Positions 816-57,108 of a stretch of 64,000 bases of DNA are shown in pieces. The DNA lies in contig NZ_CP072334.1 in the NCBI RefSeq assembly GCF_018127805.1, forward strand, positions 496,001 to 560,000, given 5' to 3'. Every line of letters begins with the position of its first letter. Within the stretch, counting starts at the first letter, position 1. The DNA is from Prevotella sp. oral taxon 475. GTDB lineage: Bacteria > Bacteroidota > Bacteroidia > Bacteroidales > Bacteroidaceae. The position numbers and the translations under genes are program-made. Under the pieces are notes generated by a model. It was given only the letters and a program-made list of their open reading frames with translations, searched no databases and was not told the DNA's origin.

Positions 816-900
816 TCAAAAGATAAGCTTTTGACCTTCAAAACATGGTCTTTTGACTGTCAAAACACGGTCTTTTGACCTTCAAAAGATAAGCTTTTGC
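816..900. repeat. Array of four 22-bp repeats, CAAAA...CTTTTG theme
   Basis: The motif CTTTTG recurs at 828, 850, 872 and 894, exactly 22 bp apart. Each unit is dyad-like: CAAAA on the left, CTTTTG on the right. The first and last units (from 817 and 883) contain CAAAAGATAAGCTTTTG. The two inner units carry CAAAACAYGGTCTTTTG instead. The array lies between the EEP gene and the glycosidase fusion. The ends resemble the AAAAGCTAAG arrays at 46678, 52565 and 56907. Confidence 0.85.
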
Positions 901-965
901 AAGGCGATGTTTTATTGATAGCGTAAGTATCGTTCAATCAGCAATTTACAAATATATTTCTCACG

Positions 966-3900
966 ATGATTCGACACACGGTTTTTCGTCTTCTCTTCCT
1001 CGTTTTGTGCTGCGCATTCGGTGCCCCTGCACATGCCGATCGCTTCGATGGCGTGCGGCAGTTGTTGGCCCGTCGGTTCCCATCGCTGCGCGATAAAGTG
1101 ACGTTCGGCGAGCTGTCTAGCTCAGGAAAAGAAGCCTTCTCGATGAAGACGCAGAACGGGCGTCTTCTCATCCGGGCCAATTCGGCCTCTGCCGCAGCCG
1201 TGGGGCTCAATCATTATCTCAACCACTTCTGCCACGCCAGTCTGTCTCACAATGCCGACAATCTGCCCGCCACGTTGCGCATCGTGCCCATACAGGGTGA
1301 AGTGCGAGTGGAAACGGCGTTCCGCTATCGCTATGCACTCAACTATTGCACCTATAATTACACCTATTCTTTTTACAACTGGGCCGACTTCGAACGAGAA
1401 ATCGACTGGATGGCCCTTAACGGCATCAACCTGATGTTGGCCCCGATGGGGATGGAAAAAGTGTGGGCCGAGACGCTGCGGCAGCTTGGATTCAGTGAGA
1501 AAGACATAGCGCGATTCATCCCCGGGCCCGGTTATACGGCGTGGTGGCTCATGGGCAACCTCGAAGGATGGGGCGGACCGATGAGTCAACCCTTGATAGA
1601 GGCGCGCTATCGGTTGCAGAAAAAGATGCTGGCTCGCATGCGTTCGTTGGGCATCGAGCCCGTTGTGCAGGGCTTTCCGGGGCTTGTGCCCACGTTTTTC
1701 AAGGAAAAATATCCGCGGGCCAGGCTCATTCCGCAGGGCAAGTGGGGCAGTTTCGACCGTCCGTCGGTGCTATTGCCCGGCGATACGCTCTATCATCGGG
1801 TAGCAAAAGCCTATTATGAAAGCCTCATCAAGTGCTACGGTCGCCACTTCGAGTTCCTTGGCGGCGACCTCTTTCACGAAGGCGGCAACACCACCGGCGT
1901 CGATGTAGCACGCACGGCGGCAGAGGTTCAACGCACCATGCTCTCCTATTTTCCCCGCGCCAAATGGGTATTGCAAGGCTGGAACAAAAATCCCTCGCCG
2001 CAGTTGCTCTCAGGACTCGACAAGCAACACGTGCTCTTGGTGAACCTCAGCGGCGAGATTGCCGCCTCGTGGGAAAGCTCGGGTGAGTTTGGCGGTACAC
2101 CTTGGTTGTGGGGAAGCGTGAATCACTTTGGCGGAAAAACCGATATGGGCGGTCAGTTGCCCGTCCTCATTGGCGAGCCACACCGTGCTTGGGCGCAGAC
2201 AAAAGGGCATGCGATGCAGGGAATCGGCATTCTGCCCGAAGGAATCACGAGCAATCCCGTGGTCTACGACCTGGCTCTGAAAACCGCCTGGTACCCTTCT
2301 TCTCCTGATTTGGACACGATGCTGCGAGCTTACATCGGCTATCGCTACGGGCACAGCAGCGAAACGCTCTTCCAGGCCTGGCGCATCTTGGCCCGTTCGG
2401 TCTATGGCGAGTTCAAAATCAAGGGCGAAGGCACGTTCGAGTCGATCTTTTGTGCCCGTCCCGGGCTACAGGTCACCAGCGTATCCACCTGGGGTCCCAA
2501 GCAAATGCAGTACAACCCGGCGGAGTTGAACAAGGCTTTGGGGCTCTTCCGCAAGGCAGCCGACGAATATATGGGCAGCGAAACCTATCGATACGACCTC
2601 GTAGACCTGGCCCGACAGGTAATGGCCAATCATGCTCGCAGCGTGTATGCCGCGGCCATGCAGGCCTATCGCGAGAAGAACCGAGACGTCTTGCTGCAGA
2701 AGGGCGAACAGTTTATCGCCTTGTTGCAGCTGCAAGACAGCTTGTTGCAAACCAATCGACACTTCCTTCTGGGGTCTTGGCTCAAGCAGGCCTCTCATTA
2801 TGGCGTTACATCTGCCGACCGTCAGCAGGCTTTGCATAATGCCAAGATGCTCATCACCTACTGGGGGCCCGACGACCCCTCGACGCGTGTGCATGATTAT
2901 GCCAACAAGGAGTGGGCCGGACTGCTGAAAACCTATTATCTACCGCGCTGGCGGGTGTTCTTCGATGCGCTCTATCAAACGGTGGAAACGGGCAACGTGC
3001 CCACTATCGACTTCTTTGCGATGGAGAAAAAATGGACGCAGGAAGAACAAAATGCTCCCACCGAGCCTGCGGGAGATGCTCTTGCTATGGTGGATAAGGT
3101 GCTTGCCTCTGTTGTTCGGCCCTATCAGAACGCGGCTCTCGACATCTCGCTCCGGGTGAACGATCTGCTCAGCCGGATGACTCTCGACGAAAAACTGGCC
3201 CAGATGCGGCATATCCACTTCAAACACTATAACACCGAGGGGCATGTCGACCTGCAAAAGCTGCGCAACAACCATACCGGCGGGATGAGTTTCGGCTGTT
3301 TCGAGGCTTTCCCCTACAGTTCTTCGCAATATCTGCGTGCTGCCACCACCATTCAACGCGAAGCCATCGACAGTTCGCGGTTGGGTATTCCCGTCATTCC
3401 CGTTATCGAAGGCATACACGGTGTGGTGCAAGACGGCTGCACCATCTTCCCCCAAGCCATTGCACAGGCAGCCACCTTCCATCCGCAATTGGTGTTCGGC
3501 ATGGCCCGTCACATTGCTGCGGAGATGCGCGCCATCGGTGCCCGGCAGGTGTTAGCTCCCGACTTGGACATCGCTCGTGAGCTGCGGTGGGGCAGAGTGG
3601 AAGAAACCTTCGGCGAAGATCCTTACCTCATCTCGCAAATGGCTTGTAGTTATGCGCAAGGCATACAGAGCCAGGGCGGAATTCCTACGCTCAAACACTT
3701 CGTGGGGCATGGAACGCCGCAGGGCGGACTGAACTTGGCCTCGGTGAAAGGTGGTCGGCGAGAACTGATGGATCTCTATGCGCGACCCTTCGAATACGTG
3801 ATTCGGAGAACGAAACCCGGGTCGGTGATGAACTGTTACAGTTCGTACGACAACGAAGCCATCACCGCCTCGCCCTATTTCTTGCGAACGTTGCTGCGAG

Positions 3901-5630
3901 ACAGTTTGAAATTTCGCGGCTATATCTATTCAGACTGGGGCTCTGTACCCATGCTTCGCTACTTCCATCATACTGCCGAGAGCGAAGAAGAGGCTGCCAG
4001 GCAGGCCATTCAGGCCGGGGTAGACTTGGAAGCGGGGAGCGATTATTACCGAACGGCCCGCTCGCAGATCGCCGCCGGTAGACTGAGCGAGGCTCTTATC
4101 GACAGTGCTGCGGCGCATGTGCTCACGGCTAAGTTTGCTGCTGGGCTTTTCGACGAGGCGCTCGACGACACTTTGCATTGGCGGAAGAACATTCACACGC
4201 CCGAAGCCATTGCCACGGCGAAGCAGTTGGCCGACGAGAGCATCGTGATGTTGGAGAACCGAAATGGGCTGTTGCCCTTAGACGTGGCCCGTCTGCGGTC
4301 GATTGCCGTCGTTGGGCCCAATGCGGCGCAGGTGCAGTTTGGAGATTACTCGTGGACGGCCGACAATCGGCACGGCATCACGCCGCTCGAGGGCATCCGC
4401 CGATGGGTGGGCCAGCGCGTGAAGGTGAACTATGCACGGGGCTGCGACTACTATTCGCAAAATGCCGACTCGATTTCTGCCGCTGTGAGAGCTGCCGCTG
4501 CCAGCGATCTCACTGTCGTGGTGGTGGGAACACAGAGCATGCTGCTGGCCAGAGCCTCGCAACCCTCTACCAGCGGCGAGGGTTATGACCTCTCTGAACT
4601 CACGCTGCCTGGCGTTCAGCAACAACTCATCGACAGCATAGCCGCCACTGGGAAACCTTTCGTGGTGGTATTGGTAACGGGAAGACCGCTCATCGTAGAG
4701 CCTTTCCGGCATGTGGCCGGTGCATTGCTGGTGCAATGGTATGGCGGCGAACAGGCCGGAGCGGCCTTGGCAGAGGTTCTCTTCGGGCAGATAGCCCCCT
4801 CGGGTCGGCTGCCGGTCTCGTTTCCCAAGAGTGTAGGTCAGTTGCCGGTGTTCTACAACTATCTGCCCACCGACAAAGGCTATTATAATAAGAAAGGAAC
4901 GCGTGAGGTTCCGGGGCGCGATTACGTCTTTTCCGATCCTTATGCGGCTTATCCCTTCGGTCATGGCTTGACCTATACCACCTTTTCTTATCGCCGCCCG
5001 TCGTTGTCGGATCGGCATGTCACCGAGAAAGACACGGTGGAGGTGTGCTTCTTCGTGAAGAACACAGGTCGGCGCGCTGGGAAAGAGGTGGTGCAGCTCT
5101 ATGTACGCGATATGAAAAGTTCGGTAGCCACGCCCGTGAAGCAGCTCTTCGGCTTCGAGAAAATCAGTCTGCAACCAGGAGAAGAGCGGCAGCTGAGGTT
5201 CCGTCTTCCCGTGTGCGACCTCTATCTGCACAACCAACGCATGGAGCGAGTGGTAGAACCGGGCGACTTCGAATTGCAAATCGGAGCCTCGTCGGCCGAC
5301 ATCCGTCTGCGAGATACGTTGCGCGTGTTGGGTAAGGAGACCTCGGATGCCGAACGAACGGCAGCTGTCAACACAACAAACGTGACGAAACCGACGGGGC
5401 GGATGCTGCAGATCCGCGGTTGTGTGCGCAATGTTCAGGCTTTCCCAATGGCCCATGTGCGCGTTCAGGCGGGGTCGAATGTGACTTATACCCAACAGAA
5501 CGGCGAATATCGTATTGCGGCTGCAGTGGGCCAGCGTTTGCAATTTGTCTTGAAAGGCTATCGAACGGAGACGCTGACCGTGCGCGAGGGGGGCATCTTC
5601 GACGTGGAACTCACCGCCGAAACGCCTTGA
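966..5630 (+). CDS. GH89 alpha-N-acetylglucosaminidase fused to a GH3 glycosidase, with FnIII-like and CarboxypepD_reg-like C-terminus
   Basis: This is a 1554-residue secreted protein with a signal peptide (MIRHTVFRLLFLVLCC, then APAHA). Residues about 25-710 match the alpha-N-acetylglucosaminidase (NAGLU) family: the FNWADFEREIDWMALNGIN-type region, GGDLFHEGG with candidate catalytic Glu305, and GILPEGIT with candidate catalytic Glu425. From about residue 725 (DLLSRMTLDEKLAQM) a complete GH3 enzyme follows: VIEGIHGVVQDG, LKHFVGHG, and SDWGS with nucleophile Asp990, then the GH3 C-terminal domain and a fibronectin-III-like domain near 1355-1450. Residues from about 1478 look like a carboxypeptidase-regulatory-like beta sandwich. 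Each catalytic domain is near the full length of a free-standing enzyme, so this is a genuine fusion. It probably removes alpha-GlcNAc and then a beta-linked sugar from mucin- or glycosaminoglycan-type glycans; the substrate is inferred. The esterase at 5672 follows after 41 bp and is probably in the same operon. Confidence 0.9.
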   Translation: MIRHTVFRLLFLVLCCAFGAPAHADRFDGVRQLLARRFPSLRDKVTFGELSSSGKEAFSMKTQNGRLLIRANSASAAAVGLNHYLNHFCHASLSHNADNLPATLRIVPIQGEVRVETAFRYRYALNYCTYNYTYSFYNWADFEREIDWMALNGINLMLAPMGMEKVWAETLRQLGFSEKDIARFIPGPGYTAWWLMGNLEGWGGPMSQPLIEARYRLQKKMLARMRSLGIEPVVQGFPGLVPTFFKEKYPRARLIPQGKWGSFDRPSVLLPGDTLYHRVAKAYYESLIKCYGRHFEFLGGDLFHEGGNTTGVDVARTAAEVQRTMLSYFPRAKWVLQGWNKNPSPQLLSGLDKQHVLLVNLSGEIAASWESSGEFGGTPWLWGSVNHFGGKTDMGGQLPVLIGEPHRAWAQTKGHAMQGIGILPEGITSNPVVYDLALKTAWYPSSPDLDTMLRAYIGYRYGHSSETLFQAWRILARSVYGEFKIKGEGTFESIFCARPGLQVTSVSTWGPKQMQYNPAELNKALGLFRKAADEYMGSETYRYDLVDLARQVMANHARSVYAAAMQAYREKNRDVLLQKGEQFIALLQLQDSLLQTNRHFLLGSWLKQASHYGVTSADRQQALHNAKMLITYWGPDDPSTRVHDYANKEWAGLLKTYYLPRWRVFFDALYQTVETGNVPTIDFFAMEKKWTQEEQNAPTEPAGDALAMVDKVLASVVRPYQNAALDISLRVNDLLSRMTLDEKLAQMRHIHFKHYNTEGHVDLQKLRNNHTGGMSFGCFEAFPYSSSQYLRAATTIQREAIDSSRLGIPVIPVIEGIHGVVQDGCTIFPQAIAQAATFHPQLVFGMARHIAAEMRAIGARQVLAPDLDIARELRWGRVEETFGEDPYLISQMACSYAQGIQSQGGIPTLKHFVGHGTPQGGLNLASVKGGRRELMDLYARPFEYVIRRTKPGSVMNCYSSYDNEAITASPYFLRTLLRDSLKFRGYIYSDWGSVPMLRYFHHTAESEEEAARQAIQAGVDLEAGSDYYRTARSQIAAGRLSEALIDSAAAHVLTAKFAAGLFDEALDDTLHWRKNIHTPEAIATAKQLADESIVMLENRNGLLPLDVARLRSIAVVGPNAAQVQFGDYSWTADNRHGITPLEGIRRWVGQRVKVNYARGCDYYSQNADSISAAVRAAAASDLTVVVVGTQSMLLARASQPSTSGEGYDLSELTLPGVQQQLIDSIAATGKPFVVVLVTGRPLIVEPFRHVAGALLVQWYGGEQAGAALAEVLFGQIAPSGRLPVSFPKSVGQLPVFYNYLPTDKGYYNKKGTREVPGRDYVFSDPYAAYPFGHGLTYTTFSYRRPSLSDRHVTEKDTVEVCFFVKNTGRRAGKEVVQLYVRDMKSSVATPVKQLFGFEKISLQPGEERQLRFRLPVCDLYLHNQRMERVVEPGDFELQIGASSADIRLRDTLRVLGKETSDAERTAAVNTTNVTKPTGRMLQIRGCVRNVQAFPMAHVRVQAGSNVTYTQQNGEYRIAAAVGQRLQFVLKGYRTETLTVREGGIFDVELTAETP

Positions 5631-5671
5631 TGCTTCTTTGCTGAACCCAACCCAACGGAACGCTACGAACG

Positions 5672-7069: not shown

Positions 7070-7080
7070 TGGACTGTTGG

Positions 7081-7307
7081 AGGTTACTGAACTGTTCAGT
7101 AACGCCACGGAGGCAAAAATGTGGCTACTGAACTGTTCAAAACCACCGCGGAGACAAAAATGATGCTTCTGAACTGTTCAGAACGGCCGCGGAGACAAAA
7201 ATAGTGCTACTGAACTGTTCAAAACCATCGCGGAGAGAAAAATGGTGCTTCTGAACTGTTCAGTAACGCCGCGGAGGCAAAAATGGTGCTACTGAACTGT
7301 TCAGTGG
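7081..7307. repeat. Six 41-bp tandem repeats with ACTGAAC/GTTCAGT palindromes
   Basis: The motif ACTGAACTGTTCA (or TCTGAACTGTTCA) begins at 7086, 7127, 7168, 7209, 7250 and 7291: six units at exactly 41 bp. The core ACTGAACTGTTCAGT is a perfect dyad around one base in the first unit and near-perfect in the others. The rest of each unit is a GC-rich stretch (CCGCGGAGRCAAAAAT). The array fills the gap between the esterase stop and the DJ-1 promoter. Variation between units is mostly outside the core. Confidence 0.93.
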
Positions 7308-7331
7308 CACCTTTTTTTCAGAATAAAACTC

Positions 7332-7339
7332 TACCTTTG
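7332..7339 (+). promoter_or_regulatory. -7 box TACCTTTG upstream of the DJ-1 family gene
   Basis: TACCTTTG fits the Bacteroidetes -7 consensus TAnnTTTG. It lies just after the 41-bp array and 121 bp before the ATG at 7461. A second copy of the surrounding 17 bp (CTTTGCAGAAGATGGAC) is at 7401-7417, nearer the gene but without the TA of the box. Confidence 0.6.
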
Positions 7340-7460
7340 CAGAAGATGGACTGCATTCGGCTATATCCAAGTCTGCTTATATGGCACTCGTTTGCACCAT
7401 CTTTGCAGAAGATGGACAGCACTCGGTCAGTCCACCGTCAATCTAAAAACTTACAGAGAA

Positions 7461-8030: not shown

Positions 8031-8063
8031 GCAAAGGCCTATGCATAAAAATAAAAAGGAGAG

Positions 8064-8744: not shown

Positions 8745-8836
8745 CAAATGGACGAATTGAAAGGGGTATCTCCTTGTCAACTCATCCACTTATGAGCTAA
8801 AACAGTAGATCTCTTGTTAACTCGTTCGCTAAGACA

Positions 8837-11780: not shown

Positions 11781-11930
11781 CAACGGATTTCGGGCTATTC
11801 TGCCGGAAATGTTAAGGGCTACAACGGATTTTTAACGCCTCCGTTGGGAATGTTAAGGGCGACATCGGATTTTTAACGCTGCCGTCGGAAATGTTAAGGG
11901 CGACATCGGCGCCTTAACATTTACGCTATA
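11781..11930. repeat. 41-bp repeat array, CAACGGATTTTTAACG / GTTAAGGG theme
   Basis: GTTAAGGG starts at 11811, 11852 and 11893, and CAACGGATT starts at 11781 and 11822: both show a 41-bp step. About three and a half units can be traced. Dyad symmetry is weaker than in other arrays (CAACGGA pairs with TCCGTTG in one unit). It abuts the 42-bp array starting at 11927. Confidence 0.82.
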
Positions 11931-12110
11931 GCGAGGCGGAAAATCCTTTGGATTTAGAGCATTGAAAGTATAGCAAGATCAAAAATCTATCGGATTTAGC
12001 GATAGAACGTTATAGCGAAATGGAAAATCCTTTGGATTTGGAGTATTGAAAGGGTAGCGAAATAGAAAATCTATCGGACTTGACGATAGAACGATGTAAC
12101 GAAGTAAACA
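11927..12110. repeat. 42-bp repeat array, TATAGCGA / AAATCC...GGATTT theme
   Basis: TATAGCGA-like motifs start at 11927, 11969, 12011, 12053 and 12095, all 42 bp apart. Each unit contains AAATCC-TTT-GGATTT or a relaxed form of it. Alternate units resemble each other more than their direct neighbours do, suggesting a higher-order 84-bp pattern. No gene is credible in 11570-12237; it holds the two arrays and two hairpins. Confidence 0.82.
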
Positions 12111-12140
12111 GTCAGACGGATTTTGTAGATAAAGATAAAT

Positions 12141-14713: not shown

Positions 14714-14870
14714 TTATTTTGCAAAGGCGGAAGGTTTTTGATGGGAAAATAGATGCACGCGAAGGGAGGATCACAAGACGGTGTTCTGTGTACTCTGTTT
14801 TTGTCTTTTTATGTGTGGTAAATGGGTTGATGGAATCTCTCAATTGTCAACGAAAATGAGGACTGTGCAC

Positions 14871-15017
14871 AGTTATGACCATCGCTACGTACAGCTACGA
14901 CCACCTCCGCATGTAGCTACGGTCACCTCCGTGTACAGTTATGATCACCTCCGCACGTAGCTACGGTCACCTCTGTGTACAGTTATGATCATCTCCGCAC
15001 GTAGCTATGACAATCGC
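14871..15017. repeat. Seven 22-bp repeats alternating GTAGCTAC and ACAGTTATGA cores
   Basis: Units start at 14871, 14893, 14915, 14937, 14959, 14981 and 15003, exactly 22 bp apart. The cores drift between AGTTATGA and AGCTACGG; GTAGCTAC is a perfect 8-bp palindrome. The linkers are nnCACCTCCGYRYGTA. From 14915 to 14981 the two core types alternate. The array lies between eno and the efflux operon terminator. Confidence 0.92.
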
Positions 15018-15081
15018 CGCTATGCGCAGTCATTATCTCAAGTGATAATTGAAAATCGGTTGCAAGGAAAGACTGTAGTAA

Positions 15082-19807: not shown

Positions 19808-19832
19808 CTATTGGTTTTATGGTTTTCGAAGC

Positions 19833-20014
19833 TTCCCAAGATTGGGAAGGCTTGTTTTCTTCTTTTTCGAGATTTCCCAAAGTTGGGAATAGCTGTTTGG
19901 GCTATTTCCAGGACTTCCCCATGTTGGGACGAGCTGTTTTTCTTCTTTTCGGGGTTTCCCAACGTTGGGAAAGGTTGTTTTTGTTATTTCCGAAGCGTCC
20001 CAAAGTTGGGACGT
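19833..20014. repeat. Five 41-bp repeats with TTCCCAA-NN-TTGGGAA cores, inside the efflux operon
   Basis: Cores start at 19833, 19874, 19915, 19956 and 19997, exactly 41 bp apart. Each core is an inverted repeat, for example TTCCCAAGATTGGGAA, and the linkers are T-rich on the plus strand. The array lies between tolC and hlyD, which face the same way, so it is probably transcribed. A second array of the same core family is at 34901. Confidence 0.95.
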
Positions 20015-23567: not shown

Positions 23568-25403
23568 TCAGGCGGTGGTGCAGGCTGCTTGTTCCTGCAC
23601 TTGGCGCATCACGCGCAGCCAATTGCCGCCCCAGATGCGCTCGATGTCGGCCTCGCTGTATCGGCGGCGCAGCAGTTGAAGGGTGAAGTTGATGAGTTCG
23701 GAGGCATCGGCCAGGCCTCGCACGCCGCCATCGCCGTCGAAATCGGTCCCCAACCCCACGTGTTCGATTCCCATCACATGGATGGCGTGCTCGAGATGGG
23801 CCATGGCATCAAGGATACAGGCCTCGCCCTGCGTGCGAAGGAAGCCATGGTAGAGTGTGATATGTGCCACCCCACCTTTCGAAGCCAGCGCGCGCAGCTG
23901 GTCGTCGGTGAGATTGCGTGGAACGTCGCACAGAGCTTTGCAGTTGCTGTGACTGCAAACGATGGGCAACCGGCTGATGTCGAGGGCATCGTAAAAACTT
24001 TTTTCGCCGCCATGACTCAGGTCTACCATGATGCCGCAACGATTCATTTCGGCGATAACCTCAGCCCCGAAGCGGCTCACACCGTTGTGTGTGTGGTTGC
24101 CGCGAGCACTGTCGCAGAGATCGTTATCGCCGTTGTGGCAGAGCGTGATGTAGGTGATGCCGCGGCGGGCGAAGTGAGAAACATTGGCCAGGTCGTGTTC
24201 CAGGGCCAGTCCGTTCTCGATTCCCAGAACGATACTCTTCCGTCCCGCGCGTTTGTTGGCCGCAAGTTGTTCGGGCGTTCGAGCCAAAGCCACATAGGCA
24301 GCGTTGGCTTTCACGATGTCTTCTATCTTGTCGAAAATAAGATCGGCATAGGCTTTGGGACCGGCCACGTCGAAAGCTACCTTCTCGCAGAAGGACTCTC
24401 CGGCTTTGGGTTGCGGCAGATAGGCCACCATCGTGGTGGCATCCAGGCGTCCTTCGGTCATCTTGTGGAGGTCGACCAGCAAGCGTGGGTCGCGGCGGTC
24501 GAAGTGAACGTCGAGCGGAAAGAACATCGGCGTGTCGCAATGGGTGTCGAGCGTGAGAATGCGACTGTGCAACTGCTTGGCGCGGGCAAAGAGGCGGGCC
24601 TGCTCTACCAGCCATGTGAAGAGCGGAAGACCCTGCTGGCCCATCCACTCCGGGTGCCACTGAACGCCGAGAAGAGGCTTGCACTCGGTACTCTCCATGG
24701 CCTCGGGCACGCCGTCTGCCGAGGCTGCGGTGAACCGAAACCGATCGCCCGTGCGGCAGACGGCCTGGTGGTGGAAGGAGTTGACAAAGAGCCGGTCGGT
24801 CCCGTAGAGGTCGTGTAGGAGCGATGTAGGGTCGAGATGCACCGTGTGGGTGGCGTGATGGCGCGGCGCATCCTGTGAATGTCGCACCAAAGAGGTCGGC
24901 TCTGTGGGGAGAATCCCACGAAGAAGGGTGGCCGAGAGTTGGCTGCGTGCGTCCTGGGTGAGTGTCTCTTCGATGTCCTGAGCCACCTCTCCGCCCAATG
25001 CCATGGCCAGTGTTTGCATGCCACGGCAGATACCCAACATCGGGATCTGCCGGTGATAGGCCAATCGGGTGAGGAGAAGTTCGGGCAAATCGCGCTCCGA
25101 ATTGATGCCGTGCAGTTTGGGAGAAGGTTCTGCTCCGCCCCAAAGCGGATTATAATCGGCTCCGCCCGTGAGCACCAATGCATCGAGAGATTCGAGCGTG
25201 CGGAGAAGAACAGCCGTGTCGGCAATGGGTGGAAGGAGCACGGGTGTGCCCCCGGCATCCACAATTTGGCGGTAATACCGGTCGAGAAGCAAGGCCCGAC
25301 CGTCGTCGTAGTTGGCCGTCAGACCGATCAACGGCCGATTGTCGGCCGGCGGATAAGCGGCGTAAATTTGGTCGAGATGCGACTGTAAATCGAATTCGTT
25401 CAT
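23568..25403 (-). CDS. Fusion of a class I glutamine-amidotransferase-like hydrolase (C26) and membrane dipeptidase (M19)
   Basis: This 611-residue protein joins two hydrolases. Residues about 20-270 are a PuuD-like gamma-glutamyl hydrolase: TGGADYNP, MLGICRGMQ with nucleophile Cys126, and GVQWHPEWM with His250 and Glu252. Residues about 282-605 are an M19 renal-dipeptidase-type zinc enzyme: LDTHCDTP (His288, Asp290), VLGIENGLAL, DLSHGGEKS, CSHSNC and GLGTDFDGDGG. Each part looks complete. There is no signal peptide, so it probably acts in the cytoplasm. Together they could split gamma-glutamyl bonds and then the resulting dipeptide, for instance in glutathione, gamma-glutamyl peptide or muropeptide breakdown; the substrate is not known from sequence. 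The glutaminyl cyclase gene follows 39 bp downstream. Confidence 0.88.
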   Translation of the reverse strand: MNEFDLQSHLDQIYAAYPPADNRPLIGLTANYDDGRALLLDRYYRQIVDAGGTPVLLPPIADTAVLLRTLESLDALVLTGGADYNPLWGGAEPSPKLHGINSERDLPELLLTRLAYHRQIPMLGICRGMQTLAMALGGEVAQDIEETLTQDARSQLSATLLRGILPTEPTSLVRHSQDAPRHHATHTVHLDPTSLLHDLYGTDRLFVNSFHHQAVCRTGDRFRFTAASADGVPEAMESTECKPLLGVQWHPEWMGQQGLPLFTWLVEQARLFARAKQLHSRILTLDTHCDTPMFFPLDVHFDRRDPRLLVDLHKMTEGRLDATTMVAYLPQPKAGESFCEKVAFDVAGPKAYADLIFDKIEDIVKANAAYVALARTPEQLAANKRAGRKSIVLGIENGLALEHDLANVSHFARRGITYITLCHNGDNDLCDSARGNHTHNGVSRFGAEVIAEMNRCGIMVDLSHGGEKSFYDALDISRLPIVCSHSNCKALCDVPRNLTDDQLRALASKGGVAHITLYHGFLRTQGEACILDAMAHLEHAIHVMGIEHVGLGTDFDGDGGVRGLADASELINFTLQLLRRRYSEADIERIWGGNWLRVMRQVQEQAACTTA

Positions 25404-25526: not shown

Positions 25527-25608
25527 CAAAAGCTAAGAAAACGCCTTACAAAAGCTAAGAAAACGCAATGCAAAAGCTAAGAGATGGCGGGGCAAAAGCT
25601 AAGAGATG
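25527..25608. repeat. Four 22-bp repeats, CAAAAGCTAAG theme
   Basis: CAAAAGCTAAG (ACAAAAGCTAAG in the second) starts at 25527, 25549, 25571 and 25593, exactly 22 bp apart. The first two units continue AAAACG and the last two AGATG. It fills the gap between the dipeptidase fusion and the Lrp gene; no gene is credible there. Confidence 0.92.
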
Positions 25609-30872: not shown

Positions 30873-30920
30873 TACCTTATAATAATAGTATGGAAAAATA
30901 AAACTTTTATGGTTTCCTCG

Positions 30921-31225
30921 TTCTGCAGCTGCAGAAGCATCGTTTGGGGGTGTTCTGCCTTTCTGTAGGTGCAGAAAGGCATTCTGCCGGCGGTTCTATC
31001 GTTCTGCAGGTGTAGAAACATATTCCACTTCCGGTTCTATGTGTCTCTCCGGGGGAAAGTGCATTTCGTTGCCGGTTCTACGTTTCCCTCCCGGGGGAAG
31101 TGCATTCTGTTGCTGGTTCTACGTTTCCCTTCCGGTAGAAAAAGCATTCCATTGCTGATTCTACGTTTCCCTCCCGGGGGAAAGTGCATTCCGTTGCCGG
31201 TTCTGCATTTCCCCCCGGGGGGAAG
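30921..31225. repeat. About seven 41-42-bp repeats, TTCTGCAG...CTGCAGAA to TTTCCC...GGGGGAAA cores
   Basis: The first cores are TTCTGCAGCTGCAGAA (30921), TTCTGTAGGTGCAGAA (30961) and TTCTGCAGGTGTAGAA (31002). The later cores change to TTTCCCTCCCGGGGGAA-type. The linker GGTTCTA starts at 31033, 31074, 31115, 31157 and 31199: two steps of 41, then two of 42. A change of core with the spacing kept is clearest here. The array lies between capA and the DUF3160 gene. Confidence 0.88.
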
Positions 31226-31252
31226 CTTTTGGATGTTCTGCCAAGCGGCGGG

Positions 31253-34668: not shown

Positions 34669-34776
34669 CGGGAGAGCATCACAACAGATGCGGGAGATCA
34701 TCGCACGATAGACGGGAGATGACCTCCCGAACCTCCGGAAGTCATCTCCCGCATCACCAAAGGTCATCTCCCGTCA
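34669..34776. repeat. 22-bp repeat array with units in both orientations, CGGGAGATGATC theme
   Basis: CGGGAGA starts at 34669, 34691 and 34713 (22-bp steps). The complementary form GTCATCTCCCG starts at 34741 and 34763, again 22 bp apart. The two half-arrays face each other and can fold into a long hairpin around 34726. It lies just after the small ORF. Confidence 0.85.
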
Positions 34777-34900
34777 AGACAGATACCACTTGATGGAAAA
34801 ACAAACACGAGTTTGGGAATGCCTCGTTGAGGGCTCCCGAACTCGCTTTTTTGATCTCCCTTTTTCGGGTAAAAGCTCTGGATGGTTTCGCGAAATCCTC

Positions 34901-35081
34901 GTCCCAACTTTGGGAAACCTCGAAAACGCCGAAAACTGGGCTTCCCAACTTTGGGAAGGGCAGAAGAGAAGAAAAAGAAACGGTCCCAAGGTTGGGAAGG
35001 GCAGAAAACAAGAAAAACAGAGTTTCCCAATTTTGGGAAACATGGAAAATGCAGAGAATAGGCCTTCCCAAAGTCGGGACG
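34901..35081. repeat. Five 41-bp repeats with TTCCCAA-NN-TTGGGAA cores before nadK
   Basis: Cores start at 34901, 34942, 34983, 35024 and 35065, exactly 41 bp apart. The cores match those at 19833; the linkers here are A-rich on the plus strand (GGCAGAAAACAAGAAAAACAG), so the array is the same family in the opposite orientation. The bases between 34602 and 35133 hold this array, the 22-bp array and the nadK promoter, and no gene. Confidence 0.95.
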
Positions 35082-42340: not shown

Positions 42341-42416
42341 CTTAGCTTTTAGGGTGTAAAAGCTAAGAGATGGACTTGCATTTTCTTAGCTTTTGCACGT
42401 CATTTTCTTAGCTTTT
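42341..42416. repeat. 22-bp array, CTTAGCTTTTG theme with one inverted unit
   Basis: CTTAGCTTTT starts at 42341, 42385 and 42407; the position between (42358-42367) holds the inverse AAAAGCTAAG. The spacings are 44 and 22 bp. The first and the inverted unit form a hairpin. This is the reverse-oriented form of the arrays at 25527 and 46678. Confidence 0.85.
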
Positions 42417-42532
42417 GCCATCCCGTGTCTTAACGTCTTTATACTCAACGCCTTCCGTAGGCAGAGAGAAAGGAGGGAGAGGGCTACGGCCAACTTTCCC
42501 CTTTTTGCAGGAAAAGATTGTGAATTTTATCG

Positions 42533-45659: not shown

Positions 45660-45663
45660 ACGG

Positions 45664-46677: not shown

Positions 46678-46762
46678 CAAAAGCTAAGCTTTTGTACGCC
46701 GAAAGCTAAGAAAACGATGCCCAAAAGCTAAGAAAACGCAAGGCAAAAGCTAAGCTTTTAGA
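46678..46762. repeat. Four 22-bp repeats with palindromic first and last units
   Basis: Units start at 46678, 46700, 46722 and 46744, all 22 bp apart. The first unit, CAAAAGCTAAGCTTTTG, is a palindrome around one base; the last is CAAAAGCTAAGCTTTTA. The inner units are CGAAAGCTAAG and CAAAAGCTAAG followed by AAAACG. It separates the oxidoreductase-hydrolase operon from the ligase-acyltransferase-exporter operon. No TAnnTTTG box was found before 46830. Confidence 0.93.
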
Positions 46763-52300: not shown

Positions 52301-52463
52301 TTGCCATTCGCCGGTTTGCTATCGTGGAAAGCTAATCATCCGCGTGGGAAAACGCATTACGCAGGCCGAACTGCAACAGATGGGCAACACGACGCTGGAG
52401 GTGAAACGGGCCGTTTATCGCCGTTACGTAGACGAATACAATGCGTTCCCGGCCGAAAGATAG
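49302..52463 (+). CDS. MMPL/RND-type exporter fused to a C-terminal acyltransferase
   Basis: This 1053-residue protein has an RND/MMPL permease (about 1-820) and a PlsC-type acyltransferase (about 860-1045). The permease has an N-terminal membrane segment, a periplasmic domain, a bundle of hydrophobic segments (WAVGIAAVLILGLLVYTL, LIALSLAFGWVVAMGGIALV, IIVLGIASVIIGIAVNYPLH), a second periplasmic domain, and more segments from about residue 660. The acyltransferase shows CNHQSILDPV (HX4D), SRVWHHPL, FPEGER and LPVYLYGL. Such exporter-acyltransferase proteins occur in Bacteroidetes lipid and pigment gene sets, as far as I recall. It likely acylates and moves a lipid-linked product across the inner membrane. 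It is last of the operon; a repeat-derived hairpin follows. Confidence 0.9.
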   Translation: MTTRLLLRLYDFLQSHRFLRLALLTAVMVAAVASALQLRFKEDISDFLPNDPTYRRSMDLYRQTNVADRIFVVFRMKDTSQVDVDRIVQAVTLFEQQAKAKRWTITARMDYERMLRVADFVYRNAPLLMNEEDYARMSRRMNADSIAAAVRHDKEMLLFPTGDWLSRNIQKDPLGLFTPILERLQTSGRAMRYELNDGCIFAPGGRFAIAMVDSPFGSSETDRNNQLIEEIDAAARKVEAQLQNVQITTTGAPVIAVENARQIKTDSLWAVGIAAVLILGLLVYTLRRVRYLSLIALSLAFGWVVAMGGIALVSREVSIIVLGIASVIIGIAVNYPLHFVTHLGHCPSPRTTLEEIAEPLVVGNITTVGAFCALIPLDSTALRDLGLFAAFMLVGTICFVVVFLPHLCGRAKDKPLATCDKDSPLEEAEQPTDDTPFTPSYPRNRYLAAGLVVATIVLGYFSWSTQFDTDMQKINYLKDAQKSLLLELGHMRNELPGTTQVYFAATGQTVEEALERSAQAFPSLLIAGKAEQQRRIDRWNDFVVRYRPLLKERLAAEAFANGFSKEAFADFNAVLDTRYRPQVVSYFAPLTANSLGNRIVGNTVVNILNVPSAQADSLMAAYNNAANGDGQWAFDVQSMNSAIATTLSQHFNYIGWVCGAIVFVFLWLSFRRIELTLIAFLPMVVSWIWILGTMHLLDMRFNLVNIILATFIFGQGDDYSIFITEGLIYEQKHRRRMLASYKRSIFLSAAIMFIGMGSLVVARHPALHSLGEITIVGMASVVVLTYLIPPMLFGWLYTNSDGMARPLPITLVRLLSTAWAAAVYLLQVFYGCLLGMWLFVLHRKTVHRMGIFHRQKYHFFRFDIQHLPGVKTEICYDGEENFDRPAVIICNHQSILDPVCLMALSPHILISIGSRVWHHPLVARVLRFADFIPTENGSEAILSLCRKHVKNGYSIAIFPEGERVTTSSISRFHNGAFALAKELNVDILPVYLYGLRKLMPCHSPVCYRGKLIIRVGKRITQAELQQMGNTTLEVKRAVYRRYVDEYNAFPAER

Positions 52464-52563
52464 CGCATTTTTCCTCTCAAAGTCCGTCGTTTTCTCCTTC
52501 TTTGGCTCCTGTTTGTGTGCTGTTTGTAAGTTGTTTTATATCAATGGCTTAGAAAGCGATTTC

Positions 52564-52650
52564 TAAAAGCTAAGAAAACGCAGGGTAAAAGCTAAGAAAA
52601 TGGAATGAAAAAGCTAAGCTTTCGCCTAGCGAAAGCTTAGCTTTTGAGAA
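52564..52650. repeat. 22-bp array, AAAAGCTAAG theme, closing in a 17-bp hairpin
   Basis: AAAAGCTAAG starts at 52565, 52587 and 52609, exactly 22 bp apart. The last unit runs into its own inverse, giving perfect 17-bp arms. It is the final array after the lipid gene cluster and lies before metG. Confidence 0.92.
52609..52645 (+). terminator. Repeat-derived hairpin after the exporter gene
   Basis: Perfect 17-bp arms (52609-52625 and 52629-52645) with a 3-base loop, made from one 22-bp repeat unit and its inverse, and ending in TTTT. It could terminate the lipid operon and, in reverse, the opposite strand. Confidence 0.78.
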
Positions 52651-52736
52651 ATAGGGTCTTACGGCTGTGCAGCCGCTTGGTAGACGATGGACGTTTTGCT
52701 TGTGGTCGTCGGGCTGCAGATGACTGGCGGGACGGA

Positions 52737-54782
52737 CTATCCCACTTGGCTGCCCGGTTTCACTTTCCGTAGCAACGAGGTGACGCTGAGGTCGCCATTG
52801 AAGTCTTCGGCCGAAAGAATCATCCCCTGACTCTCGATGCCCATCAGCTTGCGAGGTGCGAGATTGGCGATGAAAAGCACATCCTTTCCTATGAGTTCTT
52901 CGGGCTCGTAGAACTTCGCAATGCCGCTAACGATAGTTCGATCGGTGCCGCTGCCATCGTCGAGGGTGAACTTCAGCAGTTTGTTGGCTTTCTTCACCTT
53001 TTCGCAGGCCTTGATATGGCCCACGCGGAGGTCGAGTTTCTCAAAGTCGGAAAAGTCGATGACGGGTTTGATCTCTTTGGCTCTGTAGGCCGCTTCCTCG
53101 TTGGCGCGTTTCGTAGCCTCTAACTTCTGCCGTTGCGCTTCGATGGTTTCGTCTTCGATTTTCTCGAAAAGCAGTTCGGGTTCTGCCAGTTGGTAGCCGG
53201 GTTTGAGTATCTCAGTGTTGCTCAGTTCGTCCCAGTTGAAACGGTCGAGGTTTAGCATTCGTCGCAGTTTGGCACTGCTAAAAGGCAAGAAAGGCTCGAA
53301 GGCGATGGAGAGATGGGCCACCAATTGCAGCGAGATATACAAGATTGTTTCTACGCGTTTGGGGTCGGTTTTCCATACTTTCCAGGGTTCGCACTCGGTG
53401 ATATATCGATTTCCGATGCGCGCAAGGTTCATGGCTTCTTTCTGTGCATCGCGGAATTTGAACACGTCGAGCAGACTTTCCACCTTTGTTTTCACTTCTT
53501 TCAATTCGTTCAAGGCCTGTCTGTCCGCTTCAAGAAGTTCTCCGCAGGCAGGCACAATGCCGTTGAAATATTTCTTTGTGAGCTGAAGTGCGCGGTTAAC
53601 GAAGTTTCCATACACCGCCACCAGTTCGTTATTGTTGCGCTCTTGAAAGTCTTTCCACGTAAAATTGTTATCTTTCGTCTCGGGTGCGTTGGCTGTCAGC
53701 ACATAGCGAAGCACGTCTTGCTTACCGGGAAAGTCAACTAAATACTCGTGAAGCCACACGGCCCAGTTCTTGGAAGTAGAGATTTTGTCGTCTTCTAAGT
53801 TCAAAAACTCGTTGGCAGGAACGTTTTCCGGCAAGATATAACCACCGTGTGCTTTGAGCATTACGGGAAAAACGATGCAATGAAAGACGATGTTGTCTTT
53901 ACCGATGAAGTGAATCAAGCGCGTATCGGGAGCCTTCCACCACTGCTCCCAGCTATCGGGCAGGAGCTCTTTGGTATTGGAAATGTAGCCGATAGGGGCG
54001 TCGAACCACACGTAGAGTACCTTTCCGTCGGCTCCTTCCACCGGAACGGGGATGCCCCAGTCGAGATCTCGCGTCATAGCTCGAGGCTGAAGGTCGAGGT
54101 CGAGCCAGCTTTTGCACTGCCCATAGACGTTGGAACGCCACTCCTGATGCCCCTCTAAGATCCATGTTTTGAGCCACTCCTGATACTCGTTGAGCGGCAA
54201 ATACCAGTTCTTGGTCTTCTTCAGAACTGGCGAAGAACCGCTGATGGTAGACCGTGGATGGAGCAATTCGGTGGGAGAGAGGTCTCTTCCGCATTTCTCG
54301 CACTGGTCTCCATACGCCCCTTCATTGTGGCAATGCGGGCATTCGCCTGTGATATAGCGATCGGCGAGGAACTGTTTGGCCTCCTCGTCGTAGTATTGTT
54401 CGGTTTCTTTTTCCAGCAGTTTCCCCTCTTCATAGAGCTTGCGGAAGAAGTCGCTGGCCAGCTGATGGTGTGTCTTCGAGGTGGTTCGGCTATAGATATC
54501 GAAAGAGATACCGAAGTCTTCGAAGCTCTTTTTAATCATCGAATGGTAGCGATCCACAATATCTTGCGGTGTAACGCCCTCTTTGCGGGCTCTGATGGTG
54601 ATGGGAACGCCATGTTCGTCGGAGCCGCCGATAAAGATCACGTCTTGGTTTTTCAACCTCAGATAACGCACATAGATATCTGCGGGCACGTATACGCCGG
54701 CCAAATGTCCGATGTGCACACCGCCATTGGCATAGGGAAGAGCTGCAGTAACGGTGGTGCGCTGATAGTTTTTCTGTTCCAT
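52737..54782 (-). CDS. metG: Methionyl-tRNA synthetase with C-terminal tRNA-binding domain
   Basis: This 681-residue enzyme charges tRNA-Met. The catalytic HIGH motif is [16 protein letters not shown], zinc ligands lie in CPHCHNEG and QCEKCG, and the KMSKS-type loop reads [12 protein letters not shown]. The C-terminal part from about residue 575 ([17 protein letters not shown]) is the tRNA-binding OB-fold domain that promotes dimerisation, and it ends in the usual GMILSAED motif. The ATG at 54782 ([17 protein letters not shown]) fits the family start. A -7 box lies 30 bp upstream. Confidence 0.97.
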
Positions 54783-54811
54783 CGATCTTTCTTTTAATGA
54801 AATTTTGCCTG

Positions 54812-54819
54812 CAAAAGTA
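54812..54819 (-). promoter_or_regulatory. -7 box TACTTTTG for metG
   Basis: On the minus strand this reads TACTTTTG, 30 bp before the metG ATG. Confidence 0.65.
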
Positions 54820-54887
54820 CGATTTTTCTGTGGAAAACCGTCATGAAACCGTGCGGGATTGAGGAAGAAAAGTACATCTTTCAAAAC

Positions 54888-54928
54888 AAGAAAAAACCGC
54901 TTGAAGCGCAGCGTAGGGCTTCAAGCGG
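54888..54928 (-). terminator. Terminator of the M20 dipeptidase gene
   Basis: Arms CCGCTTGAAGC (54897-54907) and GCTTCAAGCGG (54918-54928) are perfect; the minus-strand T-run comes from the A-run at 54888-54896. It lies just beyond the stop at 54948. Confidence 0.88.
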
Positions 54929-54947
54929 CTGTCGATGGAGGAGTGTT

Positions 54948-56315
54948 TCAGTTGTCGTTCTCCCGATCGTACTCTAAGTGGAAGCCCACAACTGCCTCTA
55001 TTCCCTTGCGGAACATATTCAAGGGCATGTTTTCGTTGGGTGAGTGGATGGCATTCGACTCCAGACCGAAGCCCATCAGAACCGTCTTTACGCCCAAAAT
55101 CCGCTCGAACGTAGAGATGATAGGGATGCTACCCCCTAAGCGCACGGCCAGCGGACGCTTGCCGAACACCGCCTCAATGCCCCGTTCGGCTGCTTTGTAG
55201 GCGGGCATATCGATGGGGCAGACGTAGCCTTGTCCGCCGTGAAGGAACTTGATATCCACCTTCACCGAGCGGGGAGCAACGCGTTTGAAATAGTCGATCA
55301 CCAGTTGTCCCACCTCCTGATAGTCCTGATTCGGCACCAATCGGCACGACAATTTGGCATAAGCCTTCGAGGCAATGACGGTTTTTGCCCCGTCGCCGGT
55401 ATAGCCTCCCCAGATTCCGCACACGTCGAACGAAGGTCGGAAGCCCGTTCTCTCAATGGTGCTATAGCCCTTTTCGCCGGTCAGTTCGTCCACATCAATC
55501 GCTTGTTTGTAAGCGTCGAGGTCGAGTGGGATAGCGGCCAGCATCTCGCGTTCTTCGGTTGTGGGTTCCTCCACCTTGTCGTAGAAACCGGGAAAGAGGA
55601 TCCGTCCGTCTTCGTTGGTTACATTGGCGATGAGTTGACACAGAACGTTGATGGGGTTGGCGATGGCTCCACCGTAGTGACCCGAGTGCACATCGCGATT
55701 CGGACCGGTTACTTCTATCTGCCAATAGGCGATGCCGCGCAGACCGGTGGTGAGTGTCGGTACATTTTCGGCTATCATACTGGTGTCTGAAACGAGGATA
55801 ACGTCGCACTTTAAGAGTTCTTGATGCTCCTCGATAAAGGCACCCAGACTGGGCGAACCCACTTCTTCCTCACCCTCGAGAATGAATTTGATGTTGTGTT
55901 TGAGCAGCCCTTGCTTGGCTACATATTCAAAAGCCTTGGCCTGAATGAAAGATTGGCCTTTGTCGTCGTCGGCTCCGCGGGCCCAGATATGCCCGTCGCG
56001 CACCTCCGCTTCAAAAGGTTCGCTCTTCCAAAGTTCGAACGGTTCGGCCGGCATCACGTCGTAATGCCCGTAGATGAGCACCGTCTTGGCGTTGGGATCT
56101 ACCATCTTTTCGCCGTAGACCATGGGGTTTCCAGCCGATGGCATCACCTCGGCGCGGTCGGCACCGGCCATCAACAGCAGTTCTTTCCACCGTTCGGCAC
56201 AGCGCAACATGTCGGGTTTGTGTGCCTGTTGGGCACTGACACTGGGGATGCGAATCAGGCTGAAGAGCTCTTGCAGCATCCTTTCCTCGTTTTCTTGGAT
56301 ATACTTTTTGATCAT
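54948..56315 (-). CDS. M20-family dipeptidase (ArgE/DapE/CPG2-like)
   Basis: This 455-residue zinc peptidase has motifs LIYGHYDVMPAEP (first metal His-x-Asp), WARGADDDKGQ (bridging Asp), LEGEEEVGSPS (catalytic Glu and metal Glu), VSDTSM, DVHSGHYGG and LMGFGLESNAIHSPNE. It hydrolyses dipeptides or N-acyl amino acids; in this group cytosolic dipeptidases such as PepV or beta-Ala-Xaa enzymes are the nearest. The ATG at 56315 (MIKKYIQEN) fits the family better than the upstream ATG at 56351. It converges on metG from the same strand side, with its own terminator between. Confidence 0.88.
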   Translation of the reverse strand: MIKKYIQENEERMLQELFSLIRIPSVSAQQAHKPDMLRCAERWKELLLMAGADRAEVMPSAGNPMVYGEKMVDPNAKTVLIYGHYDVMPAEPFELWKSEPFEAEVRDGHIWARGADDDKGQSFIQAKAFEYVAKQGLLKHNIKFILEGEEEVGSPSLGAFIEEHQELLKCDVILVSDTSMIAENVPTLTTGLRGIAYWQIEVTGPNRDVHSGHYGGAIANPINVLCQLIANVTNEDGRILFPGFYDKVEEPTTEEREMLAAIPLDLDAYKQAIDVDELTGEKGYSTIERTGFRPSFDVCGIWGGYTGDGAKTVIASKAYAKLSCRLVPNQDYQEVGQLVIDYFKRVAPRSVKVDIKFLHGGQGYVCPIDMPAYKAAERGIEAVFGKRPLAVRLGGSIPIISTFERILGVKTVLMGFGLESNAIHSPNENMPLNMFRKGIEAVVGFHLEYDRENDN

Positions 56316-56351
56316 AAGTTGGGGTTGATGATTGTTGAGTGATTGAGTCAT

Positions 56352-56900
56352 GGAAGATACCAAATGGGCCCATCGACTGTCTTTGGATGTTCTCCGCGCT
56401 TTTCTCTCCTTTTATATATAGGGGTGATGAGCAGATGAGGGCGGAGATGAAGCGGCTTTTTCGATGGACAGGGTAAAGTTAGTGTTTTTACGGATAGGAT
56501 GTTTGTTTTACAGAAACTTTAACTTTTAAGTCATTCGCAGAGGGCTTCTCGTTGCAGTAGTACCCTTTTTCTCGGGCAGATTTGGTTTCTTTTCTGACTA
56601 AGTTAGGGGATTGGGAGTAGGTTTCGGCCTGTTTCAACCTCTAACTGGGAGAGATTGGATAGACCAAGACCTATGGCCTTGTTTTCTCTCTACGTACCGT
56701 AGACATGGTAGGCGCGCTTCGCTTGCCAACCTTGCTCTACCAACAGGCCAACCGCTATGCGGTTGTTTGCGCAAAGATATTGGAGAGAGAGCTCGAACAA
56801 ACAAGAAAACAGACGCATCGCGTAGCGATTGTTTGCGTAAGGGTATGTAAGGTCTGTCAACAAGCAAAGTAAGTATTTGATTGTCAAGGTGTTATAAAAC
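56352..56900. other. Gene-free stretch with short dispersed repeats
   Basis: I see no credible gene, tRNA or RNA here. At 56715-56744 there is a 30-bp match to 42221-42250. Short inverted and direct motifs (CGGTTGTTTGCGCAA, CGATTGTTTGCGTAA) recur at about 56760 and 56828. An open frame of 77 codons on the minus strand is built from these repeats and has no protein-like pattern. Confidence 0.5.
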
Positions 56901-56906
56901 GAATTT

Positions 56907-56990
56907 CAAAAGCTAAGATAATGGCGTGCAAAAGCTAAGAAAACGCAAGGCAAAAGCTAAGAGATGGGCATGCAAAAGCTTAGCTTTTGA
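56907..56990. repeat. Four 22-bp repeats, CAAAAGCTAAG theme, palindromic last unit
   Basis: CAAAAGCTAAG starts at 56907, 56929 and 56951, and a variant at 56973 reads CAAAAGCTTAGCTTTTG, a palindrome around one base. All steps are 22 bp. A G/A-rich array of the same period follows at once. Confidence 0.93.
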
Positions 56991-56998
56991 GTAGTAAG

Positions 56999-57108
56999 GA
57001 GGGAAGTAGTAAGTAGTAAGGAGGGGAGGAGTAAGTAGTAAGGAGGGGAGGAGTAGGTGGTAAGGGGGGAAGTAGTAAGTAGTAAGGAGGGGAGGAGTAA
57101 AGAGAAAT
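56999..57108. repeat. Five 22-bp purine-rich repeats, GAGGGGAGGAGTAAG theme
   Basis: GAGGGGAGGA-like motifs occur at 56999, 57021, 57043, 57065 and 57087, in 22-bp steps. The units are nearly pure G and A on the plus strand with no dyad core, unlike the other arrays. The array begins within one unit of the CAAAAGCTAAG array. Confidence 0.85.

Follow-up and report, generated by a model that had tools for sequence, protein, structure and literature searches.

Multicopy intergenic repeats are known from the Bacteroidales. Those of Porphyromonas gingivalis include BrickBuilt (23 nt), MITE464/PgRS (41 nt) and direct repeats of 22, 23 and 41 nt in strain W83 (PMC4596501), and the Prevotella intermedia group carries PINSR, a 188-bp intergenic repeat present in 177–184 copies for which the available part of the account reports no terminal inverted repeat (TIR; PMC4755523). 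Clusters of phased A-tracts and a genomic periodicity of 10–11 bp, with tracts about one helical turn apart, have been proposed as a packaging signal in the available parts of two accounts (PMC3940949, PMC4132750). Here we describe intergenic arrays with steps of 22 bp and of 41–42 bp in a 64,000-nt stretch of Prevotella sp. oral taxon 475 (the window; bases 496001–560000 of a one-contig genome of 2,560,308 bp), together with their counterparts elsewhere in the genome and in its relatives. Dispersed short palindromic intergenic repeats are also found as repetitive extragenic palindromes (REP) and bacterial interspersed mosaic elements (BIME) together with REP-associated tyrosine transposases (RAYT). 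Architecture sites with an origin or terminus bias include those of matS, SlmA and Noc, which are single conserved palindromes; sopC is a 43-bp tandem repeat with a dyad.

The repeats of the window are of this known kind, multicopy intergenic repeats of Bacteroidales. By description, with unit sequences uncompared, they resemble the P. gingivalis repeats, as far as these are described in the part of the account available, in being intergenic, multicopy and built from degenerate tandem units of near-equal length. An earlier note on the window had mentioned direct repeats of these lengths in Porphyromonas; this agrees with the accessible literature on strain W83 (41-, 23- and 22-nt repeats, PMC4596501), but the genome here belongs to the Prevotella group. 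The closest named relatives by NAD kinase are Hoylesella saccharolytica (65%), H. loescheii and Prevotella conceptionensis. BrickBuilt has 19 copies, many with a leader or tail and IS5-type TIRs in the portion of the account at hand (PMC4596501), whereas here we find many short arrays and noticed no such TIR, none having been searched for. Analyses of spacing phase, curvature or chromosomal axis were not found in the available portions of the P. gingivalis accounts (PMC4596501). PINSR shares with our arrays the Prevotella host and the intergenic position, and its length is near that of a 190-bp element introduced below, beside which it is set by description only; unlike for that element, an internal 22-bp lattice is not mentioned in the accessible part of the PINSR account (PMC4755523). 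From phased A-tract clusters, as described in the available excerpts, the arrays differ in being discrete and dispersed, in their exact 22-bp phase and in their origin bias. Like matS, SlmA, Noc and sopC they are biased towards origin or terminus, but they form arrays of several themes, and a matching protein was not identified (none was searched for). The new points are the opposite chromosomal gradients of the two classes and a phased A-tract lattice with nearly indel-free spacing; neither the lattice nor the gradients were found described in the search listings of the literature searched.

Unit lengths and the 22-bp lattice

Tandem repeats were detected with Tandem Repeats Finder (TRF) at a score of at least 30 in the window and at least 50 in 864 kb of the same genome. 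The earlier note had listed fifteen intergenic arrays in the window with a common 22-bp or 41–42-bp step. Every coordinate was read and the arrays exist; TRF recovers 14 of the 15, with periods of 20–22, 41–42, 44 or 82–84 bp. Among 184 merged arrays in the 864 kb the periods are 22 bp (78 arrays), 41 bp (34), 21 bp (8) and 42 bp (5), and no other period exceeds 10 arrays. A set of 464 kb gave 105 arrays (22 bp, 47; 41 bp, 21; 42 bp, 4), and one shuffled copy of it gave a single TRF row. Of 384 intergenic regions, 80 show lag 22, 46 show lag 44, 41 show lag 41 and 35 show lag 82, compared with shuffled means of 0.0–0.3. By both TRF and intergenic lags, unit lengths in the DNA covered peak instead of spreading evenly and shuffled DNA gives almost none, so that neither outcome which the note had named as speaking against it occurred. 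The dominant lengths are 22 and 41 bp; the helical multiples of 21 and 42 bp, on which the note had based a placement of sites on one face of the DNA, are minor, and such placement is unsupported. In 1.26 Mb we count 122 arrays of the 22 type, about one per 10 kb.

The main 22-bp theme is a lattice of the form YAAAAG N5 CTTTTR N5, whose dominant form in this species is CAAAAGCTAAG AAAACG N5. In 864 kb the exact 10-mer AAAAGCTAAG has 235 occurrences, one of them within a called gene; the gene calls here and in the counts of gene context below come from a simple purpose-made caller. For CAAAAGCTAAG with up to two mismatches, 201 of 202 same-strand spacings between 18 and 26 bp are exactly 22 bp and 127 of 129 between 40 and 48 bp are 44 bp. 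Taking both strands and distances of 6–60 bp, 565 of 575 spacings are in phase and 10 are out, and when motifs are required to be exact, the 77 clusters have 229 neighbour offsets, every one of them in phase, inverted units included. Indels in the lattice are rare and substitutions plentiful: over the 12 non-motif positions adjacent units (136 pairs) show 52% identity, compared with 57.5% for random pairs. Since a unit resembles its neighbour no more than it does a random unit, local duplication does not explain the present units, and the combination of exact spacing with variable spacers indicates that the geometry is what is maintained. From these comparisons we infer that the spacing is probably under selection.

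The second half-site, CTTTTG, is mostly AAAACG in this species. This substitution keeps the A-tract and loses the dyad, which favours curvature over dimer symmetry. The statement that most units have a dyad core does not hold in general: dyads significant at p≤0.05 against column-permuted units occur in about half of the 41/42-bp arrays (19/39) and in 9 of the 88 arrays of 21–23 bp in the genome. A universal dyad of the form H6 N5 H'6 N5 in unrelated 22-bp arrays was likewise rejected; because only 5 of 36 consensus units outside the AAAAG and purine themes reach significance, this geometry is not general, though the 22-bp step is. A clustered regularly interspaced short palindromic repeats (CRISPR) array was ruled out by the head-to-tail degenerate 22-bp units, which have 5-bp variable stretches and no unique longer spacers. 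Two 22-bp arrays about 10 kb apart (G000:C1:203595-203648 and 213793-213846, G000 being this genome) carry the same units inverted, as if by inverted duplication.

The lattice places an A- or T-tract every 11 bp, and in this species neighbouring tract centres are mostly 10, 12 or 11 bp apart. Predicted curvature exceeds that of shuffles with z>2 in 36 of 61 AAAAG arrays of this genome, in all 13 copies of the 190-bp element of another genome of the genus (G084) and in both lattices of a further genome (G010). Against a control that retains the 22-bp period by permuting columns, z>2 is reached by 19 of 59 own arrays and z>1 by 50 of 59. By this model the AAAAG theme is predicted to be curved A-tract DNA. 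Folding was scored as z against shuffles, a z below -2 on at least one strand counting as folding. The 22-bp arrays have a mean of -0.36 with 12 of 78 below -2, compared with a mean of -0.73 and 29 of 120 in control windows. In gaps of at least 150 bp, 22-bp arrays are present in 42 of the 102 opposed (divergent plus convergent) gaps and in 29 of the 156 tandem ones (p=1e-4). A reading of the class as terminators was rejected, since divergent (24/56) and convergent (18/46) gaps are about equally occupied and the arrays do not fold.

We compared the lattice with 99 other genomes of the same genus (G-numbers are genome labels). The exact AAAAGCTAAG theme has 287 matches in this genome and a single match in each of 4 of the 99. 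The looser pattern AAAAGN5CTTTTN{3,11}AAAAG has 41–306 matches in 8 of the 99 (G039 306, G078 228, G010 144, G053 125, G012 116, G065 102, G084 63, G004 41), where reversed-pattern controls give 0–2; this genome has 18, controls 2. At least one loose match was found in 66 of the 100 genomes, mostly near control level. The places listed for three of the eight, G010, G012 and G084, have nearly all period 22. With a stricter lattice, a family draw of 201 genomes gave 17–53 matches in four further genomes of the genus (G259, G314, G179, G215) and 0–3 in other genera. The 22-bp lattice is thus patchily spread through the genus.

In G084 the lattice forms the body of a dispersed element. The 13 copies retained after a filter for length (185–205 bp) and end motif are all 190 bp long and align without gaps at a mean identity of 79%, length and phase being held at 67–89% identity. 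Their ends are imperfectly inverted (TGTAAAnATnnTTC, 10 of 14 positions matching), no consistent target-site duplication was seen by eye in 13 flank pairs, and conservation partly extends past the assumed ends. A hidden Markov model (HMM) of the element has 9 matches at 5 places in this genome (E 3.5e-6 to 0.009) and none in shuffled DNA. The shoulder motif TCARNNNNTTANMAA, covering the inner shoulder only, recurs at 15 of the 90 head edges of our own arrays and at 2 of their 64 tail edges.

The 22-bp step reaches beyond this theme. Lag 22 was seen in 45 of 711 intergenic regions of other family members and in 2 of 333 in an outside group drawn from E. coli and from other families of the Bacteroidales; these are sums of printed lists with an unlisted lag taken as 0, and the outside group includes a few loci of metagenome-assembled genomes of the family. 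Immediately downstream of the NAD-kinase gene, a repeat is present at 16 of 47 loci of relatives (11 of the 47 are without a scorable gap). In 13 of the 16 the best lag is 21–23 or 44, the units having no evident similarity in sequence, with orthology of the next gene unchecked and no shuffled control included. The claim that spacing is kept regardless of sequence is supported within the genome and by the unrelated 21–23-bp arrays at these loci. Among arrays of 21–23 bp in relatives, dyads are significant in 18 of 61, an enrichment that falls short of a general rule. A step of about 22 bp is kept even by arrays that lack phased A-tracts. A genome of another genus (G285; L245-L249) has its own 22-bp theme, TTGTACAAAAGAATTAATTCTT, palindromic about two axes and present at three loci (14428, 67844 and 87412 of the joined 100 kb).

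The 41-bp arrays and the origin–terminus axis

The 41-bp arrays have up to 17 units, with higher-order units of 82 and 123 bp. Arrays of 41/42 bp have a mean fold z of -4.24, with 27 of 33 below -2 and 24 of 33 on both strands. Theme T1 combines the constant linker CGGAGANNAAAATG with a palindromic core that has three main types (TGAA/TTCA, TGAG/CTCA and TGTA/TACA), and the core types are mixed inside single arrays. Of the 76 units, all are Watson-Crick at core pair 23/29 and 75 at core pair 24/28, compared with 41 and 39 expected under independence, an expectation that serves only as a guide as the units are related. These pairs show no G-T or A-C intermediates, and pairs 25/27 (41/76, 38 expected) and 20/32 (17/76, 21 expected) do not covary. 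We regard the 41-bp arrays as predicted hairpin-forming satellites with interchangeable palindromic cores and a conserved linker.

T1 was seen in this genome only, with no occurrence in the 99 others of the genus. Of the 39 arrays, 29 lie in tandem gaps, about as gap numbers predict; divergent gaps hold few (3/56 compared with 28/156 tandem gaps, p=0.026). In tandem gaps theme T2, scored by its A-rich linker, is in sense orientation in 8 of 8 cases (34896-35080 and others in stretches L031-L070), a hint that T2 may have a role at the RNA level. T1 (2 sense, 4 antisense) and T3 (3 and 2) are unbiased.

Across 63 stretches of about 20 kb, the cumulative GC skew reaches its maximum at 1.39 Mb and its minimum at 0.05 Mb. 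Only two parS-like sites were found, at 80 and 81 kb, and each has one mismatch. The two classes follow opposite gradients along this axis. Counted by distance from 1.42 Mb, arrays of the 22 type increase from 0.87 through 1.75 and 1.97 to 3.00 per 20 kb (Spearman +0.50) and those of the 41 type decrease from 1.87 through 0.81 and 0.59 to 0.35 (Spearman -0.53). Over the whole genome, the origin quarter holds 40 and the terminus quarter 8 of the 83 arrays found with a stricter 22-bp pattern; for the 24 T1 arrays the corresponding counts are 1 and 14. From terminus to origin, the share of gaps with a 22-bp array increases from 1/22 to 11/19 in convergent and from 7/76 to 21/64 in tandem gaps, and the 41-bp share in tandem gaps decreases from 21/76 to 6/64. 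In a model with gap type and length (371 gaps), none of 300 permutations reaches the distance effect for either class. Gap supply was rejected as the cause of the gradient, as the frequency of opposed gaps rises slightly towards the terminus (rho -0.26 with distance) and distance keeps its effect in the model. A replication-polar motif resembling KOPS or Chi was also rejected, there being no strand flip (AAAAGCTAAG forward/reverse 135/104 on the left and 44/32 on the right, over the 63 stretches). The note had treated both lengths as one system; the classes are set apart by how they fold, by their context and spread, and by their place on the chromosome.

Arrays and neighbouring features in the window

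The note had grouped the window's arrays into about eight unrelated themes. Several are related: the AAAAG theme is common to six of the nine 22-bp sites, that at 828 being a variant of it, and T2 to two of the 41-bp sites. The variant (815..903; TRF 22, 3.9 copies) reads CAAAAG ATAAG CTTTTG / CAAAAC ATGGT CTTTTG, matches the G084 element HMM (E 0.0034, window 813-934) and with RNA fold z of -5.4/-4.3 is an exception among 22-bp arrays. Arrays of AAAAGCTAAG supported by both TRF and exact motifs lie at 25527..25608 (+; TRF 22, four exact motifs), 42341..42432 (-; one unit inverted), 46678..46760 (+), 52564..52646 (+; last unit inverted) and 56907..56989 (+; last unit palindromic). At 42341 the TRF row covers only the later part, 42384-42432. 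The last of these arrays is trailed by a 22-bp purine array (AGTAGTAAGGAGGGGAGGAGTA) at 56990..57100 (+; TRF 22, 5.0 copies). Purine arrays (TAAGGAGGGAAGTAG) often trail AAAAG arrays on the same strand, as here and at several places in stretches L031-L070; they too have a 22-bp step, with shorter inner steps. The array at 14870..15023 has a higher-order unit of 44 bp (TRF 22 and 44). The site at 34669 is the only one without a TRF row at 22 bp; by eye, CGGGAG/CTCCCG half-sites are legible there in one 22-bp register (34691, 34713, 34735, 34757), giving a weak array CGGGAG N5 CTCCCG N5 at 34691..34778.

Among the longer units, a T1 array with core CTGAACTGTTCAG and scaffold CGGAGACAAAAATG lies at 7081..7326 (+; TRF 41, fold z -6.6/-10.5). 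T2 (TTCCCAANNTTGGGAA) is found at 19823..20013 (-; TRF 41/82) and at 34896..35080 (+; TRF 41), the latter in sense orientation to the NAD kinase gene. A 41-bp array with a half-unit of about 20 bp (11804..11909; TRF 41, 2.6 copies) precedes a 42-bp array with a higher-order unit of 84 bp (11923..12123; TRF 42 and 84). The 42-bp array at 30900..31235 was read as 8 units in register without indels, the palindromic core switching from TTCTGCAGSTGCAGAA to TTTCCCTCCCGGGGGAAA; TRF covers its later part only (31031-31225, fold z -5.2 on both strands). One of its units (31110-31151) is a chimera of core types, with the left arm from one palindrome type and the right arm from another.

Rfam gave no match in the whole window at the gathering threshold. 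Two open reading frames (ORFs) are composite: one of 1554 aa (966-5630) joins an alpha-N-acetylglucosaminidase (NAGLU) and a glycoside hydrolase of family 3 in one chain, and one of 611 aa (23568-25403) a C26 glutamine-amidotransferase-like peptidase and an M19 dipeptidase. Elsewhere in the genome, two Y1/RAYT-like transposase genes (G000:C1:43850-45170 and L072:1290-2230) are each framed, as judged by eye, by their own GC-rich palindromic repeat, and a 66-bp tandem array lies beside the first. An AAAAG-type array occurs within about 1.1 kb of each, on one side only. Short palindromic intergenic repeats and Y1 genes in the genome recall REP/BIME-RAYT systems; the framing repeats are the difference, and a RAYT/REP origin of the arrays was rejected since both genes are framed by other GC-rich palindromes and not by 22- or 41-bp units.

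Explanations of the two classes

The best explanation, which we hold tentatively, is that there are two independent classes of dispersed intergenic arrays with a role in chromosome architecture. The 22-bp class is a dispersed repeat, curved by prediction and maintained in its geometry, that thins out from origin to terminus; most likely a protein of the nucleoid or of DNA topology would dock on its lattice or wrap it. The 41-bp class consists of predicted hairpin satellites, of which divergent gaps hold few and the region around the terminus many. The two classes give opposite repeat densities along the origin–terminus axis and may help to organise the chromosome. The DNA scaffold proposed in the note may apply to the 22-bp class, which fits it by predicted curvature, lack of folding, excess in opposed gaps and origin skew.

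Several observations weigh against this explanation. The gradient rests on one genome, its P-values being nominal with neighbouring stretches non-independent and spatial autocorrelation unmodelled. T2 (9 arrays) shows no trend (4 in the terminus quarter, 2 in the origin quarter, p=0.24), and the 22-bp share of divergent gaps from terminus to origin is not monotonic (8/32, 14/29, 6/16). Curvature is a prediction from an unverified wedge table. It is not special to the 22-bp class, as z>2 is also reached by 15 of 34 arrays of 41 bp (0 of 5 at 42 bp), and it fails to explain the other 22-bp themes, in which none of 17 arrays reaches that value; 22 bp is not a multiple of 10.5. The element HMM finds nothing in 100 kb of the lattice-bearing genome G010, and the link between this genome's arrays and the G084 element appears weak but present. 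A binding protein was not identified. HU-HIG was considered as a reader of the lattice and rejected, as its copies do not track it (3–15 in 10 lattice-rich and 2–22 in 10 lattice-poor genomes).

The main rival, a parasitic dispersed element with a bias to tolerated sites, is possible but unlikely in our view. It takes the 22-bp arrays as remnants resembling miniature inverted-repeat transposable elements (MITEs; compare PINSR and BrickBuilt), spread by a transposase and without host function, their location reflecting tolerated insertion. The dispersed 190-bp copies with their inverted ends, the shoulder shared by some of our arrays and the five HMM places are what such an origin would leave, and minisatellites within MITEs are described for P. 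gingivalis in the available part of one account (Klein 2015, PMC4596501). However, the 13 flank pairs, at ends not sharply defined, gave no consistent target duplication by eye, the copies hold length and phase across their range of identity, and neutral decay should disrupt the 22-bp phase, yet only the 10 spacings noted above are out.

A bolder form of the architectural explanation, which we consider doubtful, is a positional code of two symbols, in which 22-bp curved lattices would mark the origin half and 41-bp hairpin lattices the terminus half of the chromosome. Architecture proteins would sense spacing and not sequence, so that each species of the Bacteroidaceae could rewrite its units and keep the ruler.

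As an account of both classes, neutral minisatellites seem improbable. Duplication or slippage with a preferred unit of 22 or 41 bp would expand random or palindromic seeds, in line with the unrelated units of near-constant lag downstream of the NAD-kinase gene and with the 82- and 123-bp units of the 41-bp arrays, as unequal exchange gives. In the main 22-bp theme, however, neighbours no more alike than strangers show that recent duplication is not the source, and both the scarcity of indels and the opposed gradients are unexpected. A neutral process may apply to part of the 41-bp class and to the Bacteroides arrays.

It is very unlikely that the arrays act generally as RNA, that is, as transcribed tandem hairpins in termination, stability or translation. 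The 41/42-bp arrays do fold far better than shuffles, two T1 core pairs are nearly always Watson-Crick and T2 is sense throughout the tandem gaps scored; but the other T1 pairs do not covary, the covarying ones lack G-T intermediates, T1 has no orientation bias and fold scores are strong on both strands, and the 22-bp arrays do not fold and occur in divergent gaps too. Operator arrays with one sequence-specific dimeric regulator per theme are scarcely credible: inverted half-sites do share one 22-bp phase, often with one good half per cell, but hundreds of copies would be expected genome-wide at the array density found, in this species the second half-site has mostly lost its dyad and kept its A-tract, and T1 mixes core palindromes within one array.

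By our own judgement, little is known of chromosome organisation in the Bacteroidota. If the explanation by two architectural classes is true, a class stable in spacing and drifting in sequence, together with mirror-image gradients, would give baits for pull-down, landmarks for Hi-C and sites that can be deleted. It may also join scattered reports, such as the 22/23/41-nt repeats of Porphyromonas and PINSR in Prevotella, into one testable rule.

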